A program made the translations under genes and the position numbers. Source: Pseudomonas fluorescens (lineage in GTDB: Bacteria > Pseudomonadota > Gammaproteobacteria > Pseudomonadales > Pseudomonadaceae). From it: a DNA stretch of 64,000 bases. The notes beneath the pieces were generated by a model. The model was not told the DNA's origin and made no database searches. It saw only the letters and a program-made list of their open reading frames with translations. The stretch spans positions 2,604,001 to 2,668,000 of the forward strand of contig NZ_CP015225.1 of NCBI RefSeq assembly GCF_001623525.1, read 5' to 3'. Of the stretch, positions 4,529 through 31,347 are shown in pieces (position 1 is the stretch's first letter; every line of letters begins with the position of its first letter).

Positions 4529-4560
4529 TGTGGCGAGGGAGCTTGCTCCCGCTGGGCTGC
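4529..4560. repeat. Left part of a REP palindrome split by the IS110 element
   Basis: Starts TGTGGCGAGGG and ends GGGCTGC, exactly the 5' half of the REP copies at 7606 and 42925. The missing half resumes at 6111 (AGCAGCCC). Rejoining the two flanks across a single GA restores a hairpin with 7-bp arms GGGCTGC/GCAGCCC and a GAA loop. Confidence 0.9.
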
Positions 4561-4574
4561 GATATAGGTAGTCC

Positions 4575-4778
4575 GTTCCTTGCTCCCCCATACTGATACT
4601 CGCTGGAGTCCGGTTGTTGCGAGGAAGGAACATGCACCTGCGAGCTACGAATAGGGCTGCAACGCATCTCGATGATTACTGCTTCACCTTCGAGCCCAGC
4701 AGGTGCGCTTGCGCCCTCTAACGAACACTCAGGGAAAGCCGGGCACGGCTCTCTATATCGCCTTCGCTGGACGCAAGC
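4575..4778 (+). ncRNA. Candidate bridge RNA of the IS110 element
   Basis: Three consecutive structures can be read. A 5' stem-loop is closed by 4575-4581 with 4625-4631. A first large loop is closed by an 8-bp stem, 4634-4641 with 4698-4705. A second is closed by a 7-bp stem, 4707-4713 with 4772-4778. Loop one contains GGGCTGC (4654-4660), identical to the left target flank 4554-4560. It also contains CTGCTTC (4679-4685), the reverse complement of the GA core plus right flank 6109-6115. Loop two contains CTCAGGG (4728-4734), identical to 6099-6105 at the element's right end. It also contains CTATATC (4753-4759), the reverse complement of the left end 4561-4567. This matches the target-binding and donor-binding loop order known for IS621. 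Exact RNA ends are not known. Confidence 0.75.
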
Positions 4779-4821
4779 ATGCATGTTCCTGCATGTACTT
4801 TAGCGTCTGTGGAGGTGTGCG

Positions 4822-6090
4822 ATGCAAACGCTCTTGTCTCAGAAATTCACTGCTTATATCGGAATTGATTGGGCCGATACCAAACATGACGTCTGTTTGC
4901 AGGTTGCTGGGCAAGCCCAGCGGTGCTTCTCGGTCATCCGACACAACCCCGAAGCTATTGATCAATGGGCTCATGCGCTGTATCAGCGTTATGGCGGTCC
5001 TATCGCCATTGCCGTGGAGTTAGACAAAGGACCGTTGATAGCGGCCCTGCAAAAATATGATTTTTTTTGTTTGTTCCCGATCAACCCCGCCACCTTAGCC
5101 AAGCAGCGTAAGGCCTTCGTTCCCAGCGGTGCGAAGGACGATCCGAGCGATGCCCAGTGGGCACTTGAGCTATTGCTCAAGCATCCCGACAGATTTCCCC
5201 AGCAGGAGAAACAAAGTCCTGCCATACGTTCTCTGGCTAGCTTGACTGAACATCGGAGAACCTTGGTTGATGAGCGGGTAAGAATCAGTAATCGGTTGGT
5301 TTGCATGCTCAAGCAGTACTATCCGTTGGCGCTGGAGTTGTTCCACGATCATGACACACAGGTGTTCTGTGATTTCCTGGAGCGCTGGTCGACGTTGGAA
5401 ACACTTAAACGTGCTCGGCCTACAAGCGTTTTGAAGTTTCTTAACGCGCATAATGTTCGCCATGCAGAACTCAATCAGCAGCGTCTGGCCTTGATCCTCA
5501 AGGCCACGCCGCTGACAGAGGATCCGGGGATTGTTAACCCTTCAGCGCTGTATGTGCGGACCCTGGCATCGCAACTGAGTGGGATGCTGGTGGCGATCAA
5601 GCAGTTTGATGCGGCGATCGAAGAAACGGCCAATACCCTGGCCGATTACAGCCTCTTCAAATCCTTGCCTGGAGCCGGGCAACAGCTTGCACCACGGCTA
5701 ATGGTAGCTTTTGGTGAGCAACGTGATCGCTTCAAGGATGCTGGTGCTATGCAGCGATATGCCGGGATCGCTCCGGTTACCGAGCGCAGTGGCAAGAAGA
5801 AAATCGTTCGCTGGCGCTATCAATGTTCAACCTTTTTGCGCCAGACATTTGTCGAGTGGGCTGCCCACAGCATCAATCAATCGGTATGGGCAGGGGCGTA
5901 CTATCGCCAACAGAAGGCCAAAGGCTGCTCTCATCAAGCAGCCCTGAGGGCACTGGCTTTTAAATGGATCAGGATCGTTTATCGGTGCTGGAATGCTGGA
6001 TCCCAGTATGACGAGAGCGTCTATTTACAAGCCTTGGCCCGCCACGACTCGCCTTTGATAAGAGCACCGGAGGCAACGAAAGCATGTTGA
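4822..6090 (+). CDS. IS110-family transposase (DEDD recombinase)
   Basis: The recombinase of the element, 422 residues. The N-terminal RuvC-like DEDD domain shows the first aspartate in YIGIDWADTKHD, the glutamate in AVELDKG and the last two in KDDPSDA. A coiled middle segment follows. The C-terminal Tnp domain has SLPGAGQQLAPRL and the YAGIAPVTERSGKK motif containing the catalytic serine. Length and motif order are those of an intact IS110-group enzyme. The start codon follows GGAGGTGTGCG, a good ribosome binding site. Its codon use is more AT-rich than that of its neighbours, consistent with transfer. The enzyme is expected to act with the RNA encoded just upstream. Confidence 0.95.
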   Translation: MQTLLSQKFTAYIGIDWADTKHDVCLQVAGQAQRCFSVIRHNPEAIDQWAHALYQRYGGPIAIAVELDKGPLIAALQKYDFFCLFPINPATLAKQRKAFVPSGAKDDPSDAQWALELLLKHPDRFPQQEKQSPAIRSLASLTEHRRTLVDERVRISNRLVCMLKQYYPLALELFHDHDTQVFCDFLERWSTLETLKRARPTSVLKFLNAHNVRHAELNQQRLALILKATPLTEDPGIVNPSALYVRTLASQLSGMLVAIKQFDAAIEETANTLADYSLFKSLPGAGQQLAPRLMVAFGEQRDRFKDAGAMQRYAGIAPVTERSGKKKIVRWRYQCSTFLRQTFVEWAAHSINQSVWAGAYYRQQKAKGCSHQAALRALAFKWIRIVYRCWNAGSQYDESVYLQALARHDSPLIRAPEATKAC

Positions 6091-6110
6091 CGGAAGAGCT
6101 CAGGGCGTGA

Positions 6111-6208
6111 AGCAGCCCTCAAACCTGACACCAAGGTGTGTCAGACTGATTGCATAGCCGCTTTTGGGGCTGCCATGCAGCCCAGCGGGAGCAAGCTCCC
6201 TCGCCACA
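6111..6208. repeat. Right part of the split REP and an inverted partner REP
   Basis: 6111-6120 completes the REP interrupted by the IS. A short inverted repeat (CTGACAC/GTGTCAG, 6125-6144) and a second REP in opposite orientation (6166-6208, ending CTCGCCACA) complete a REP pair. The layout is the same as in the uninterrupted pair at 7606-7737. Confidence 0.85.
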
Positions 6209-27782: not shown

Positions 27783-30637
27783 GTCGGGTAGAGATGGGCC
27801 ATTACTGGCCCACCTCCCCCTAAGAACCGTACGTGCGAGTTTCCCCGCATACGGCTCGGGCCTAATCAAAACCCCCGGTAAGGGGAGCCGGTTTGTTCAC
27901 TGTCAATCCGCGAGCGTGTAGCCGCTGGTGACAAAGGGGGTGCAATAGTACCCGGTTATTTAGGGAGTCTCCACCGCCTTTTGTGCGGTACAGAATGTGG
28001 TGATCATGCCACCCCGTCTCCTTCGTAATCGGTAACTTACATATTGGACACAATCCTTTCTGACTCTGGAAAAGGCTCAAGATTTGCTTACGGTACGCCA
28101 GCCTTTTGAGCATCTGTTCCATACGCCTTTTCTCACCCATTTCCTCCATAGAAGGATCGAAGGGGTTGTACTCCCCACTCACCTTCTTGTGTCTTTCGAT
28201 CGGAGTGCTCGCTAGCGAGTACAACTCGATCGTTCGCATCTCTCCCTTGTCATTCATCGTCGCGGTGGCAAACACCCCTTTGCGCCCCTTCATGGGTTTA
28301 AAATATTTCGCTCCGATCCACTGGAGTGTTTTCTTAGGGTGTCGCCGTTTTGCCCAACGCCATAGAGCCAGAAAGATCATGTAATCCATGCGGCTATACG
28401 CTTTCTTGGCTACCACAGGCTGGTGATAGAACGCCCAGCCACGCAGTATCGGATTCAGCTGTCGGATCAGATCCTCCTGCCTTACCGTTTTGCTGGTACT
28501 GATGACCTCCCTTACCTTGCTATAGAACGCTTTCACGTTTTTCTTGCTTGGCTTGATCAGAAGCTTCCCATCGTACTTGCGGAAATTCCAACCTAGAAAG
28601 TCAAAGCCTTCCTTTATATGGACGACACGCGTCTTCTCGAGTGACAACTGCAGCCCCCGCACTGCTAGGAACTGCTCTACCCAAGGTCTGACTTCAGTTT
28701 CCAGCACCTCTCGCGAGGTTCCGGTTATCACAAAGTCATCCGCGTAACGCACCACATTGATTTTCAGCTTCTTGGCCTTGGTCACACCCAGATGTTGCTT
28801 AAGTTGTGACTCCAGCCCATCCAGCACCAGATTCGCCAAGCTGGGCGAGACAATCCCGCCCTGTGGCGTACCGGCATCCGTTGCCTGTAGCTGGCCTTTA
28901 TGAATCACGCCAGCTTTCAACCATTTTCGGAGAACCACCTTATCCGTTGGGACGTTGGTGATAAGCCAGTCATGATTGATATGGTCAAAGCAGCCTTTGA
29001 TGTCCGCCTCCAAAACCCATTGGGCCGAAACCTTCTTGGATAGGCATACGAACAACTGCCCCATTGCATCCGCCGTAGATCGCTCGATCCTAAAGCCGTA
29101 GCTGTTTGGATCGCCGGTGGTTTCTGCAATGGGTGCCAGAGCTAGCAAATACAGCGCCTGCATAGCCCTGTCAGTCATGGTCGGGATGCCCAAAGGGCGT
29201 TCCTTCCCATTCGACTTCGGAATGAACACACGCCGTAAAGGTCGTGGTTTATATCCGTGACGCTTCAACCCATTTGCCGCTTTCCATTTTGCGTCGGGTG
29301 TATCCCAGAGCACGCGGTCGACTCCCGCCGTGCGCTTACCCTGGTTTTCAGTGACTCGCCGTACGGCCAAGTATCTGGCCGAGCGTGAGCGGGTCAGCAT
29401 CCGCTGCAAGGCTTTCACCCTGCGCCAGTTGCCTTCCCGACAAGCCTTCGCAATCCGTATCTGCATCGCCCGGACATTCCGCTGAACACGCCACCAATCG
29501 ATGTCATGCCATTGTTGCGGAGCGCCGGAAGGCGCAGACACGGCCAATTGGCTATGTTCTAACATGCTGCCTTCCTCTCAAGTTGCCCCAAGCGAAAGAC
29601 GCACACATCCCCTGACGGGAATGGACGCTCCCGCCAGGGTTGGATTAATAGAAGATCCGTTACAGCTGGATCTCTAGGTTTATTGAGACAGGTTCACTCA
29701 GAGTTCATGCGACGAAAGACCACGCAGAAGTCTGCCCGGTTTCCCGTGGAGCAATGTTCCAGCCCCTATCCGGGCCATTACAGCCCGGCTTTCGCTTTCT
29801 CTGCGATCCCATACCCGCACAGCCAACGGATCCCCTTGCGGTTCACCTGCCCGAAGGCAGCCATACGGGCTTACCACGTTCCCTGCCTGTCACACGACTG
29901 GGTTAGAGTCTGCCTATTCGCCGGCGACCTTATGTGACGACGTGTTCCGACCCTTGACCAGAACAACCGGTCGCATCACCTTTTTGGTTAATGCCTATCA
30001 GCAGATTAGGCACCGTAATGCTGACGACGTTTATTAGCAGTTCACTTGTGTTACCCATACCAGCCAGCCTAGCGCCTCAACCCGGTACTGCTCCGAGCAT
30101 CTGCGCTCCGCCTCACGGCGAAGACGCACCCATACGGGGGCTACATTGTTGGAAGAGCTTCACACCCCACCGTTACCAGTGACGCATGTCTTCCTAGGCT
30201 ATCGTTGGTCGCACAACGAGTCCGCTGCCACTCCAAACAGGCAATGGTTGGACAATGACAGACAGAGCTTTCGCTCATGTCTCCGGTTTGATGTGAACAG
30301 GGACTGCCGGGGCAGCATGCTCAAAGAATTGTTACCTCCTGTTTCAAAAGCAGGAGGGAACCCCAGCGGGGATTCTCTCCCGCATGGGTTTAGCCCTGAA
30401 TAGGGCTGATGTGTAGTAGGCACTCCAATACCGGAAATCCAGTACTGCGGTCGAGCCACCGAGCGCTAATCGACCTTGAGTTTGCCACCGCCGCTGCGGC
30501 AAGTCCTTGAAGGCATTGGACTTCTGGGAGGGTTTTGTTTCTTGGGATTGGGCACCCAAGCTCTCGGCTCTCTTTCGAAAACCCTTCAAGATGACTCTAC
30601 ACCTCGAAGTTTAGGAGACACGCCACGCGTGTCGCAC
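27783..30637 (-). mobile_element. Group II intron with its own reverse transcriptase
   Basis: On the minus strand the intron begins GTGCGAC at 30637, the consensus 5' end, and finishes ...CCCGAC near 27783 after domains V and VI. Domain V is the 34-nt hairpin at 27857-27824 starting GAGCCGTA with AACGGTTC-type closing and a GAAA loop; domain VI follows with a bulged A. The ORF sits in domain IV. The exon ending CCCTTG (30643-30638) can pair with CAAGGG at 29956-29951 or 29838-29833, as an EBS1-IBS1 contact. The 3' end could differ by 2 nt. About 1.07 kb precedes the ORF, longer than most, so domain I has extra segments. Confidence 0.88.
27862..29565 (-). CDS. ltrA: Group II intron-encoded reverse transcriptase/maturase with HNH endonuclease
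   Basis: A 567-residue multifunctional protein. The reverse transcriptase domain (residues 60-340) carries FIPKSNGKERPLGIPT, the DIKGCFDHI motif, GTPQGGIVSPSLANL and the catalytic YADD box. The maturase X domain covers about 360-460 (LRGWAFYHQPVVAK). The C-terminal HNH nuclease has CPICKLPI, HDHHILYRTKGG and LLHPLCHQRLH. All motifs are intact, so it should support splicing and retrohoming. It lies in domain IV of the surrounding intron RNA. Confidence 0.95.
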   Translation of the reverse strand: MLEHSQLAVSAPSGAPQQWHDIDWWRVQRNVRAMQIRIAKACREGNWRRVKALQRMLTRSRSARYLAVRRVTENQGKRTAGVDRVLWDTPDAKWKAANGLKRHGYKPRPLRRVFIPKSNGKERPLGIPTMTDRAMQALYLLALAPIAETTGDPNSYGFRIERSTADAMGQLFVCLSKKVSAQWVLEADIKGCFDHINHDWLITNVPTDKVVLRKWLKAGVIHKGQLQATDAGTPQGGIVSPSLANLVLDGLESQLKQHLGVTKAKKLKINVVRYADDFVITGTSREVLETEVRPWVEQFLAVRGLQLSLEKTRVVHIKEGFDFLGWNFRKYDGKLLIKPSKKNVKAFYSKVREVISTSKTVRQEDLIRQLNPILRGWAFYHQPVVAKKAYSRMDYMIFLALWRWAKRRHPKKTLQWIGAKYFKPMKGRKGVFATATMNDKGEMRTIELYSLASTPIERHKKVSGEYNPFDPSMEEMGEKRRMEQMLKRLAYRKQILSLFQSQKGLCPICKLPITKETGWHDHHILYRTKGGGDSLNNRVLLHPLCHQRLHARGLTVNKPAPLTGGFD

Positions 30638-31010: not shown

Positions 31011-31095
31011 TGGTGCGGACGGAGAGACTCGAACTCTCACACCTTGCGGCGCTGGAACCTAAATCCAGTGTGTCTACCAATTCCACCACATCCGC
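31011..31095 (-). tRNA. tRNA-Leu (anticodon UAG)
   Basis: An 85-nt class II tRNA with encoded CCA. The acceptor stem GCGGATG pairs with its 3' partner, a long variable arm is present, and the anticodon loop between CTGGA and TCCAG reads TTTAGGT, giving UAG. Confidence 0.95.
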
Positions 31096-31113
31096 GTATC
31101 AAGCTTTTAAAGC

Positions 31114-31145
31114 AAAGGCGCCAGATTGTTAGATCTGGCGCCTTT
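31114..31145. terminator. Hairpin between tRNA-Leu and tRNA-His
   Basis: AAAGGCGCCAGAT / ATCTGGCGCCTTT with a short TGTTAG-like loop. It may be a terminator or an RNA processing signal within the tRNA transcript. Confidence 0.65.
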
Positions 31146-31153
31146 CTAGAATA

Positions 31154-31229
31154 TGGGGTGGACGATGGGGATCGAACCCACGACAACGGGAGTCACAATC
31201 CCGTGCTCTACCAACTGAGCTACGCCCAC
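31154..31229 (-). tRNA. tRNA-His (anticodon GUG)
   Basis: A 76-nt tRNA with encoded CCA. The anticodon stem CGGGA/TCCCG encloses TTGTGAC, giving GUG. The extra G at -1 that marks tRNA-His is encoded at 31230 opposite the discriminator C. Confidence 0.96.
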
Positions 31230-31270
31230 CATATTGCCTTGTTGCCTTACTTGTGCCAAAGCTGCCTAAT

Positions 31271-31347
31271 TGGCGCACCCGGCAGGACTCGAACCTGCGA
31301 CCATCCGCTTAGAAGGCGGATGCTCTATCCAGCTGAGCTACGGGCGC
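31271..31347 (-). tRNA. tRNA-Arg (anticodon UCU)
   Basis: A 77-nt tRNA with encoded CCA. The anticodon stem TCCGC/GCGGA encloses CTTCTAA, giving UCU. The acceptor arms GCGCCCG and CGGGTGC pair with one G-T. Confidence 0.96.

Follow-up and report, generated by a model that had tools for sequence, protein, structure and literature searches.

The 259-nt left end of an IS110-family element at positions 4563-6110 of the 64,000-nt stretch of Pseudomonas fluorescens DNA analysed here (the window) very probably encodes a bridge RNA, as judged by all the sequence tests applied. Bridge RNAs and their covariation with targets are already known (PMC11208160), and a comparison by topic with open-licence papers makes it well supported that the present element is a further example of this known kind. 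The original prediction, made from the letters of the window, had read the left end as a complete bridge RNA with target and donor guides. Helix covariation and the covariation of guides with flanks both support it, and handshake bases, a junction promoter and a subterminal inverted repeat are added here. The reading would explain, base by base, how an IS110 element lands in Pseudomonas REPs in one orientation.

The element, its recombinase and its REP target

The whole element, which like all of its parts described below lies on the plus strand, measures 1548 bp including one copy of the core, and the same span is found in 9/9 copies. In the window it consists of the 259-nt non-coding left end, a gene at 4822-6090 and a right end of 20 nt after the gene. 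The gene encodes a DEDD RNA-guided recombinase of 422 aa, with matches to PF01548 (DEDD; 82.5 bits) and PF02371 (Tnp; 58.5 bits), both above cut-off, and to NF033542 (IS110 family RNA-guided transposase; 159 bits, cut-off 140). Its residues D16, E66, D107, D110 and S323 are invariant across five sequences and, judging from spacing and motif, would correspond to D11, E60, D102, D105 and S241 named for IS621 (PMC11208158). The nearest solved chain by sequence is IS621, and a profile of five relatives leads to ISCro4 and IS621. An identity as TIGR-Tas was rejected, as NF052498 reached only 23.1 against a cut-off of 100, and PADLOC, which covers anti-phage defence, gave no match at E <= 0.001. Elsewhere in the window, group II intron matches (domains D1-D4-7, Intron_gpII) are located at 27783-30220 on the minus strand, near three tRNA genes in a row (31014-31347, minus strand).

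The left target GGGCTGC (4554-4560) lies inside an interrupted REP and is followed by the left core GA on the target side (4561-4562), whereas the right core GA, on the donor side (6109-6110), is followed by the right target AGCAG (6111-6115). The right end of the element provides the left donor CTCAGGGCGT (6099-6108), and the left end provides the right donor TATAG (4563-4567). The interrupted REP belongs to an inverted REP pair (REPIN; 4530-4560 and 6177-6207 in the window), and matching REP pairs are present in many of 298 Pseudomonas genomes.

A Pfam model detects 15 IS110-type genes in the 6.9-Mb genome, nine of which are this element (L001-L009). Counted from core to core, each copy is 1550 bases long; GA bounds it at either end, and AGCAG follows on the right. 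Every left flank is a REP, reading GGGCTGC in eight copies and GGACTGC in L007. Since the outer flanks differ, the nine copies are separate insertions. No case of the same guides at a site without the target was seen among them: all nine sit at the predicted site, eight with an exact match and one with one mismatch. A second IS110-type element (320 aa), probably another bridge RNA element, has six copies in the same genome (L010-L015). These are inserted in another REP, flanked by CGAGCAAGCTCGCT and CCCACA; their core appears to be CT, and about 220 nt of non-coding sequence lie upstream of the gene.

Candidate sites are abundant in this genome. The exact 14-mer GGGCTGCGAAGCAG has 79 uninterrupted occurrences (reversed control, 0), and the REP half GAGGG-N7-TCCCGCTGGGCTGC has 343, with GAAGCAG attached in 49. 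The pattern GCTGGGCTGC-NN-AGCAG occurs 303 times; GA as core is possible in no more than 79 of them, and among the matches listed GA is found in at least 21 and GC in most. GA, GC, GT and AT are all represented as cores in the REPs of this genome. Assuming that the target supplies the left GA, the chance of GA at 8/8 such copies is about 0.26 to the eighth power, or 2e-5. On this calculation, the core and the right guide seem to be read in addition to the REP itself. The two halves of the REP hairpin are nearly symmetric (GGGCTGC-GAA-GCAGCCC), and the middle becomes TTC when the hairpin is read the opposite way. Only the core and the right guide tell these halves apart, and they would thereby also set the single orientation of insertion.

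A query made of the joined flanks of the window copy matches 201 of 298 Pseudomonas genomes, nearly always, among the matches listed, through the REP pair alone. In one genome (G160, locus L124) the match extends over the full query, from the gene on one side to that on the other, and the position of the element is taken by the empty site CGGCGGC-GA-AGCCG with one GA; the scan scored two candidates per genome, and further empty sites are possible.

Structure of the predicted RNA and covariation of its guides

The predicted RNA begins with a 5' stem-loop (4575-4631) in which GTTCCTT (4575-4581) pairs with AAGGAAC (4625-4631), a helix that was read from the sequence and lies outside the covariation scoring. 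The target-binding loop with its closing helix (loop 1; 4634-4706) and the donor-binding loop with its closing helix (loop 2; 4707-4778) come after it. The original prediction had described such a stem-loop ahead of two loops closed by an 8-bp and a 7-bp stem. The stem-loop is present, as is the 7-bp stem of GCTTGCG (4707-4713) with CGCAAGC (4772-4778). In the 8-bp stem the 5' arm GCACCTGC had been placed correctly at 4634-4641, but the 3' arm GCAGGTGC lies at 4699-4706 and not at 4698-4705.

The putative left target guide GGGCUGC (4654-4660) and right target guide CUGCUUC (4679-4685, core included) lie in loop 1, and the putative left donor guide CUCAGGG (4728-4734) and right donor guide CUAUAUC (4753-4759, core included, matching GA-TATAG) in loop 2. 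All four had been placed at these positions, 18 nt apart in either loop, and this spacing holds in the window sequence. The order of loops and guides likewise agrees, as claimed, with that described for IS621 (PMC11208160, PMC11208158). The second guide of each loop had been said to include GA, and indeed in the window both core bases pair in the right target guide and the right donor guide; the left target guide pairs the second core base only and the left donor guide the first only.

Folding of single sequences gave z -2.68 for the 259-nt left end and z -0.71 for the 179-nt double-loop stretch; it was rejected as proof of a bridge RNA, since the double loop folds no better than its shuffles. 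With such folding indecisive on its own, the case rests on the covariation of the helices and of the guides with their flanks. For the helices, 50 of 60 distinct loop regions were aligned, ten having been removed by hand as distant or redundant (L075, L086, L089, L090, L092-L094, L096, L110 and L111). The RNAalifold structure comprises two helices that contain internal loops, together with short pairings further in. We counted 34 pairs, omitting two predicted pairs within loop 2, and found both sides altered in 23 of them, with 95.7% of cells pairing. Compensatory changes in the closing stems, which had been proposed as a check, were present in 12/17 pairs for loop 1 (alignment columns 11-28/67-84) and in 9/10 pairs for loop 2 (4707-4716/4769-4778). 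None of 500 shuffles reached any of the five helix measures. Once the partners are slid, pairing drops to 26-43% of cells, a comparison that favours the scored structure because it came from the same alignment. Rfam 15 contains no family matching 4540-4830 at E <= 1. A search of this genome for orphan bridge RNAs, comparable to ssr9 of ISPpu9, found none, the 260-nt left end occurring nine times, always at the nine tnp copies.

A match to the protein was found in 6 of 298 Pseudomonas genomes, this genome included, and near relatives (72-74% aa identity) carry other target guides at other, matching sites. One such element (L017, L023, L026 and L028) has the guides GCCTCTC/CCTCCTC and reads GCCTCTC-GA on the left in 4/4 loci and GA-GGGGG on the right in 3/4, with GA-GGTGG in L026 and one G-U pair in the guide. 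Another (L018 and L019) has GCCTCCC/CCCCTTC and the site GCCTCCC-GA...GA-AGGGG. In L026 and L028, two of four related elements from one Pseudomonas genome, the recombinase gene is interrupted by a stop codon, but the left end and the target site are intact. Natural pairs of close relatives whose recombinases differ in guides and targets could serve, without any design, as reagents for work on reprogramming, handshake pairing and core tolerance.

For a broader comparison, 85 loci were assembled from the best 80 of 123 relatives in a scan of species genomes, the window, L017-L019 and one Cupriavidus plasmid locus. Anchors and ends were located in 43 of the 85 (42 were dropped for missing anchors or ends), with 37 different sequences of loop 1 among them. 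On average, 6.30/7 positions agree between the left flank and the 5' half of the loop 1 belonging to the same element (18 full matches, 32 at >=6), compared with 4.25 for flanks of other elements (n=37). The right flank matches the 3' half of its own loop 1 at 4.74/5 (23 full, 31 at >=4) compared with 3.66 (n=31, those with a clean right end), and with the core included at 6.10/7 compared with 4.91. On either side, 0/20000 permutations gave own-flank matches as high, although the permutations ignore phylogeny; the covariation of the loop-1 guides with the flanks of each element, another proposed check, is thus observed. Some other element's flank matches better in 12/37 cases on the left and 5/31 on the right. 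Five of six controls using the wrong half, loop or strand were unremarkable, and the sixth, in which the left flank was reverse-complemented and compared with the 5' half of loop 1, was borderline (963/20000). Target patterns of the sister elements were also searched for in 10 genomes, but as the reversed control hit at least as often in most of these, the result was not taken as a count. A covariance model run on 398 Pseudomonas genomes added three new loci (G391, G115), one of which is readable (L133); its left guide CGACCC matches its own flank, and its donor loop is broken.

The left donor guide behaves differently from the target guides in that it is invariant among the closer relatives and hence carries no covariation signal there. 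All seven of its positions match donor positions -2 to 4 in 31/31 elements, window included. The CTCAGGG match had been described as offset from the core; this is confirmed, and the same offset in 31/31 elements makes it a trait of the subfamily. Further along the donor, agreement is 65% at position 5, 3% at position 6, 45% at position 7, 90% (28/31) at position 8, the first core base, and 0% at position 9. Own donors are not preferred over others at positions 5-9, and positions 5-7 are mismatched in the window. Of eight distant loci whose right end is visible, read by eye, three agree with the left donor guide fully (L085, L090 and L093) and five partially (L086, L089, L092, L096 and L102). 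In the left target guide, core positions 8 and 9 match in 25% and 47% of the 32 elements where this is clear.

Each right guide is followed by two candidate handshake bases. AC after CUGCUUC (4686-4687) is complementary to left donor positions 6-7, the GT of CGT-GA, and GC after CUAUAUC (4760-4761) to left target positions 6-7, the GC of CTGC-GA, so that each right guide with its handshake bases spells a product junction. The first base (position 7) matches the donor for loop 1 in 24/31 elements (3/20000 permutations as high) and the target for loop 2 in 32/36 (1/20000). At the second base (position 6), covariation is weak for loop 1 (9/31; 201/20000) and not detected for loop 2 (7/36; 7342/20000). 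The register of the loop-1 right guide was set by the best match to the element's own right flank, and L053 is without a loop-2 register.

The joined ends of the element read TTGACG-18-TATAGG and would form a promoter, with a predicted -35 box (TTGACG, 6087-6092) that overlaps the stop codon and a predicted -10 box (TATAGG, 4563-4568) whose first five bases are the right donor. TTGAC at 17-18 nt from TATAG is kept in 34/43 loci by script (not deduplicated), and also in L068 on reading, which had been mis-scored at a spacing of 28 owing to an earlier TTGA. TTGA is absent in 8/43 loci, five of them without a recognised right end. A subterminal imperfect inverted repeat of 12 bp flanks the donor, with its left arm at 4566-4577, its right arm at 6089-6100 and 8/12 matching positions in the window. 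Over 30 elements the arms covary: own arms match at 9.0/12 and swapped arms at 7.9 (0/20000 permutations); individual values span 5-12 of 12, with 12/12 in L083.

Proposed mechanism, alternative explanations and known systems

We infer a sequence of events in which the two ends of a circular element would form the promoter and the RNA would be transcribed from about position 4575. The 422-aa recombinase would then bind this RNA, loop 1 (GGGCUGC, CUGCUUC) would pair with the REP sequence GGGCTGC-GA-AGCAG, and loop 2 (CUCAGGG, CUAUAUC) with CTCAGGGCGT-GA-TATAG, the junction of the element's two ends. Exchange of strands would take place at GA, helped by the handshake bases beside the right guides, which match the products GT-GA-AGCAG and GC-GA-TATAG, and the element would end up inserted in REPs in one orientation. 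In the sequences themselves we see the structure, guides that match and covary with targets, handshake covariation, conserved promoter halves and an empty site, and we consider it highly likely that, as a whole, a bridge RNA guides the recombinase into REPs in this manner.

The left end could instead be no more than a 5' untranslated region controlling translation of the transposase, with the protein choosing the REP. There is a precedent in ISPpu9, which has a structured 5' untranslated region of 244 nt and two sRNAs that affect transposase translation (PMC8450116), and the window RNA is directly upstream of the start codon. A role of this type, however, predicts neither loop bases that match the flanks nor their joint change with the flanks, and handshake covariation with the other DNA partner is equally unexpected under it. 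As an exclusive explanation it is very improbable; the two roles may coexist. Steering by DNA homology, in which captured pieces of REP direct homologous or site-specific recombination without RNA, appears less probable again. The left target guide is indeed a direct copy of seven REP bases and the right donor guide an inverted copy of an element end, but compensatory pairs in both closing helices are needed only by a folded strand, the same loop architecture is found where the flanks are unrelated in sequence, and the control orientations are near chance. Least credible of all is that 7-nt guides within a GC-rich left end match by accident. The guides are short and the loops fold unremarkably as single sequences, yet 0/20000 permutations for both target guides and 0/500 shuffles for the helices leave such an explanation a negligible chance.

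The predicted bridge RNA system shares with IS621 the left-end RNA with a 5' stem-loop and a target loop followed by a donor loop (PMC11208160), the same-sense left guide and complementary right guide, handshake bases and a junction promoter (PMC11208160, PMC11208158), and a DEDD and Tnp recombinase. The handshake bases of IS621, two following each right guide, pair with the other DNA partner once strands have been exchanged (PMC11208158). The two systems differ in core (CT in IS621, GA here) and in protein length (328 aa in the solved chain, 422 aa here). The core of IS621 is said to be part of all four pairings (PMC11208160), whereas here it matches the left target guide in 25%/47% and the left donor guide in 90%/0% of elements at its two positions. 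Similarly, the left donor guide of IS621 pairs with donor positions 1-8 without a break (PMC11208158), while the present one extends outward by three more bases, with an interruption ahead of the core.

REP targeting by Pseudomonas IS110 elements was described by 2006, when ISPpu10 and ISPpu9 of Pseudomonas putida, both of the IS110 family, were reported in REPs in 7/7 copies each with 2-bp direct repeats (PMC1525189), and Extended Data Fig. 10 of PMC11208160 shows a bridge RNA for ISPpu10. The window element shares family and REP insertion with both, as compared by description only. The repeat of ISPpu9 is AG, and an sRNA lies downstream (PMC8450116), in contrast to GA and only 20 nt after the gene here. 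Target selection by an RNA was found independently as the seekRNA of ISEc21 (IS110) and of IS1111 elements (PMC11187229). The window element shares with ISEc21 a non-coding region upstream of tnp, whereas the RNA of IS1111 elements is usually downstream of tnp (PMC11187229), where the present element has those 20 nt only. According to the same source, a subterminal inverted repeat is absent in the IS110 type, or short and imperfect; the imperfect one in the window, with 8/12 bp, may be set beside the 7-17 bp of the IS1111 group.

Core dinucleotides in sister elements

The base of the right donor guide that reads the first core base is U in 29 and C in 6 of the 35 loci where both ends are available. 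In the U-type loci the left and right dinucleotides differ in 28/29 cases, the right one being GA in 25 and AA in 4 and the left one of eleven kinds. Ends are equal in 4/6 C-type loci, with L035 (TT/GA) and L072 (GA/GG) as exceptions. This base thus tracks equal cores, mostly within one clade (Fisher p 0.0014, or 0.0026 on distinct loops), but few independent events lie behind these values, five of the six C-type loci being the window and near Pseudomonas relatives. In Methylobacter luteus, three copies sharing one RNA all have GA as their right dinucleotide, and their left ones are TT, TA and TT. Locus L106 has AG on the left and GA on the right; the homologous uninterrupted repeat L145 from another Pseudomonas reads CGACCC-AT-AGCTG, with AT in place of GA, and its match covers the right flank and the repeat but not the far left flank. 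Together, these observations suggest, without proving it, that the left dinucleotide is that of the target and the right one that of the donor, and that the two cores need not be equal.

A tentative and rather doubtful extension is that the 420-aa subfamily represents a bridge RNA variant in which identity of donor and target cores is optional, with core reading as an evolvable switch set by one base per loop. The left donor guide would reach outward, being interrupted at positions 5-7, and the left target guide would mostly ignore the core. U-type members would join donor GA (or AA) to unrelated target dinucleotides, and such inequality would leave no direct repeat, while in the window clade the right donor guide carries C and both ends read GA (9/9 copies). 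The odds of optional cores are reduced by the C-type falling mostly in one Pseudomonas clade and by the left donor guide matching the first core base in 28/31 elements. If sister elements do recombine unequal cores, the target-site range of bridge recombinases would widen. L038, L039, L107 and other U-type relatives have no direct repeat, their left dinucleotide being variable and their right one GA or AA.
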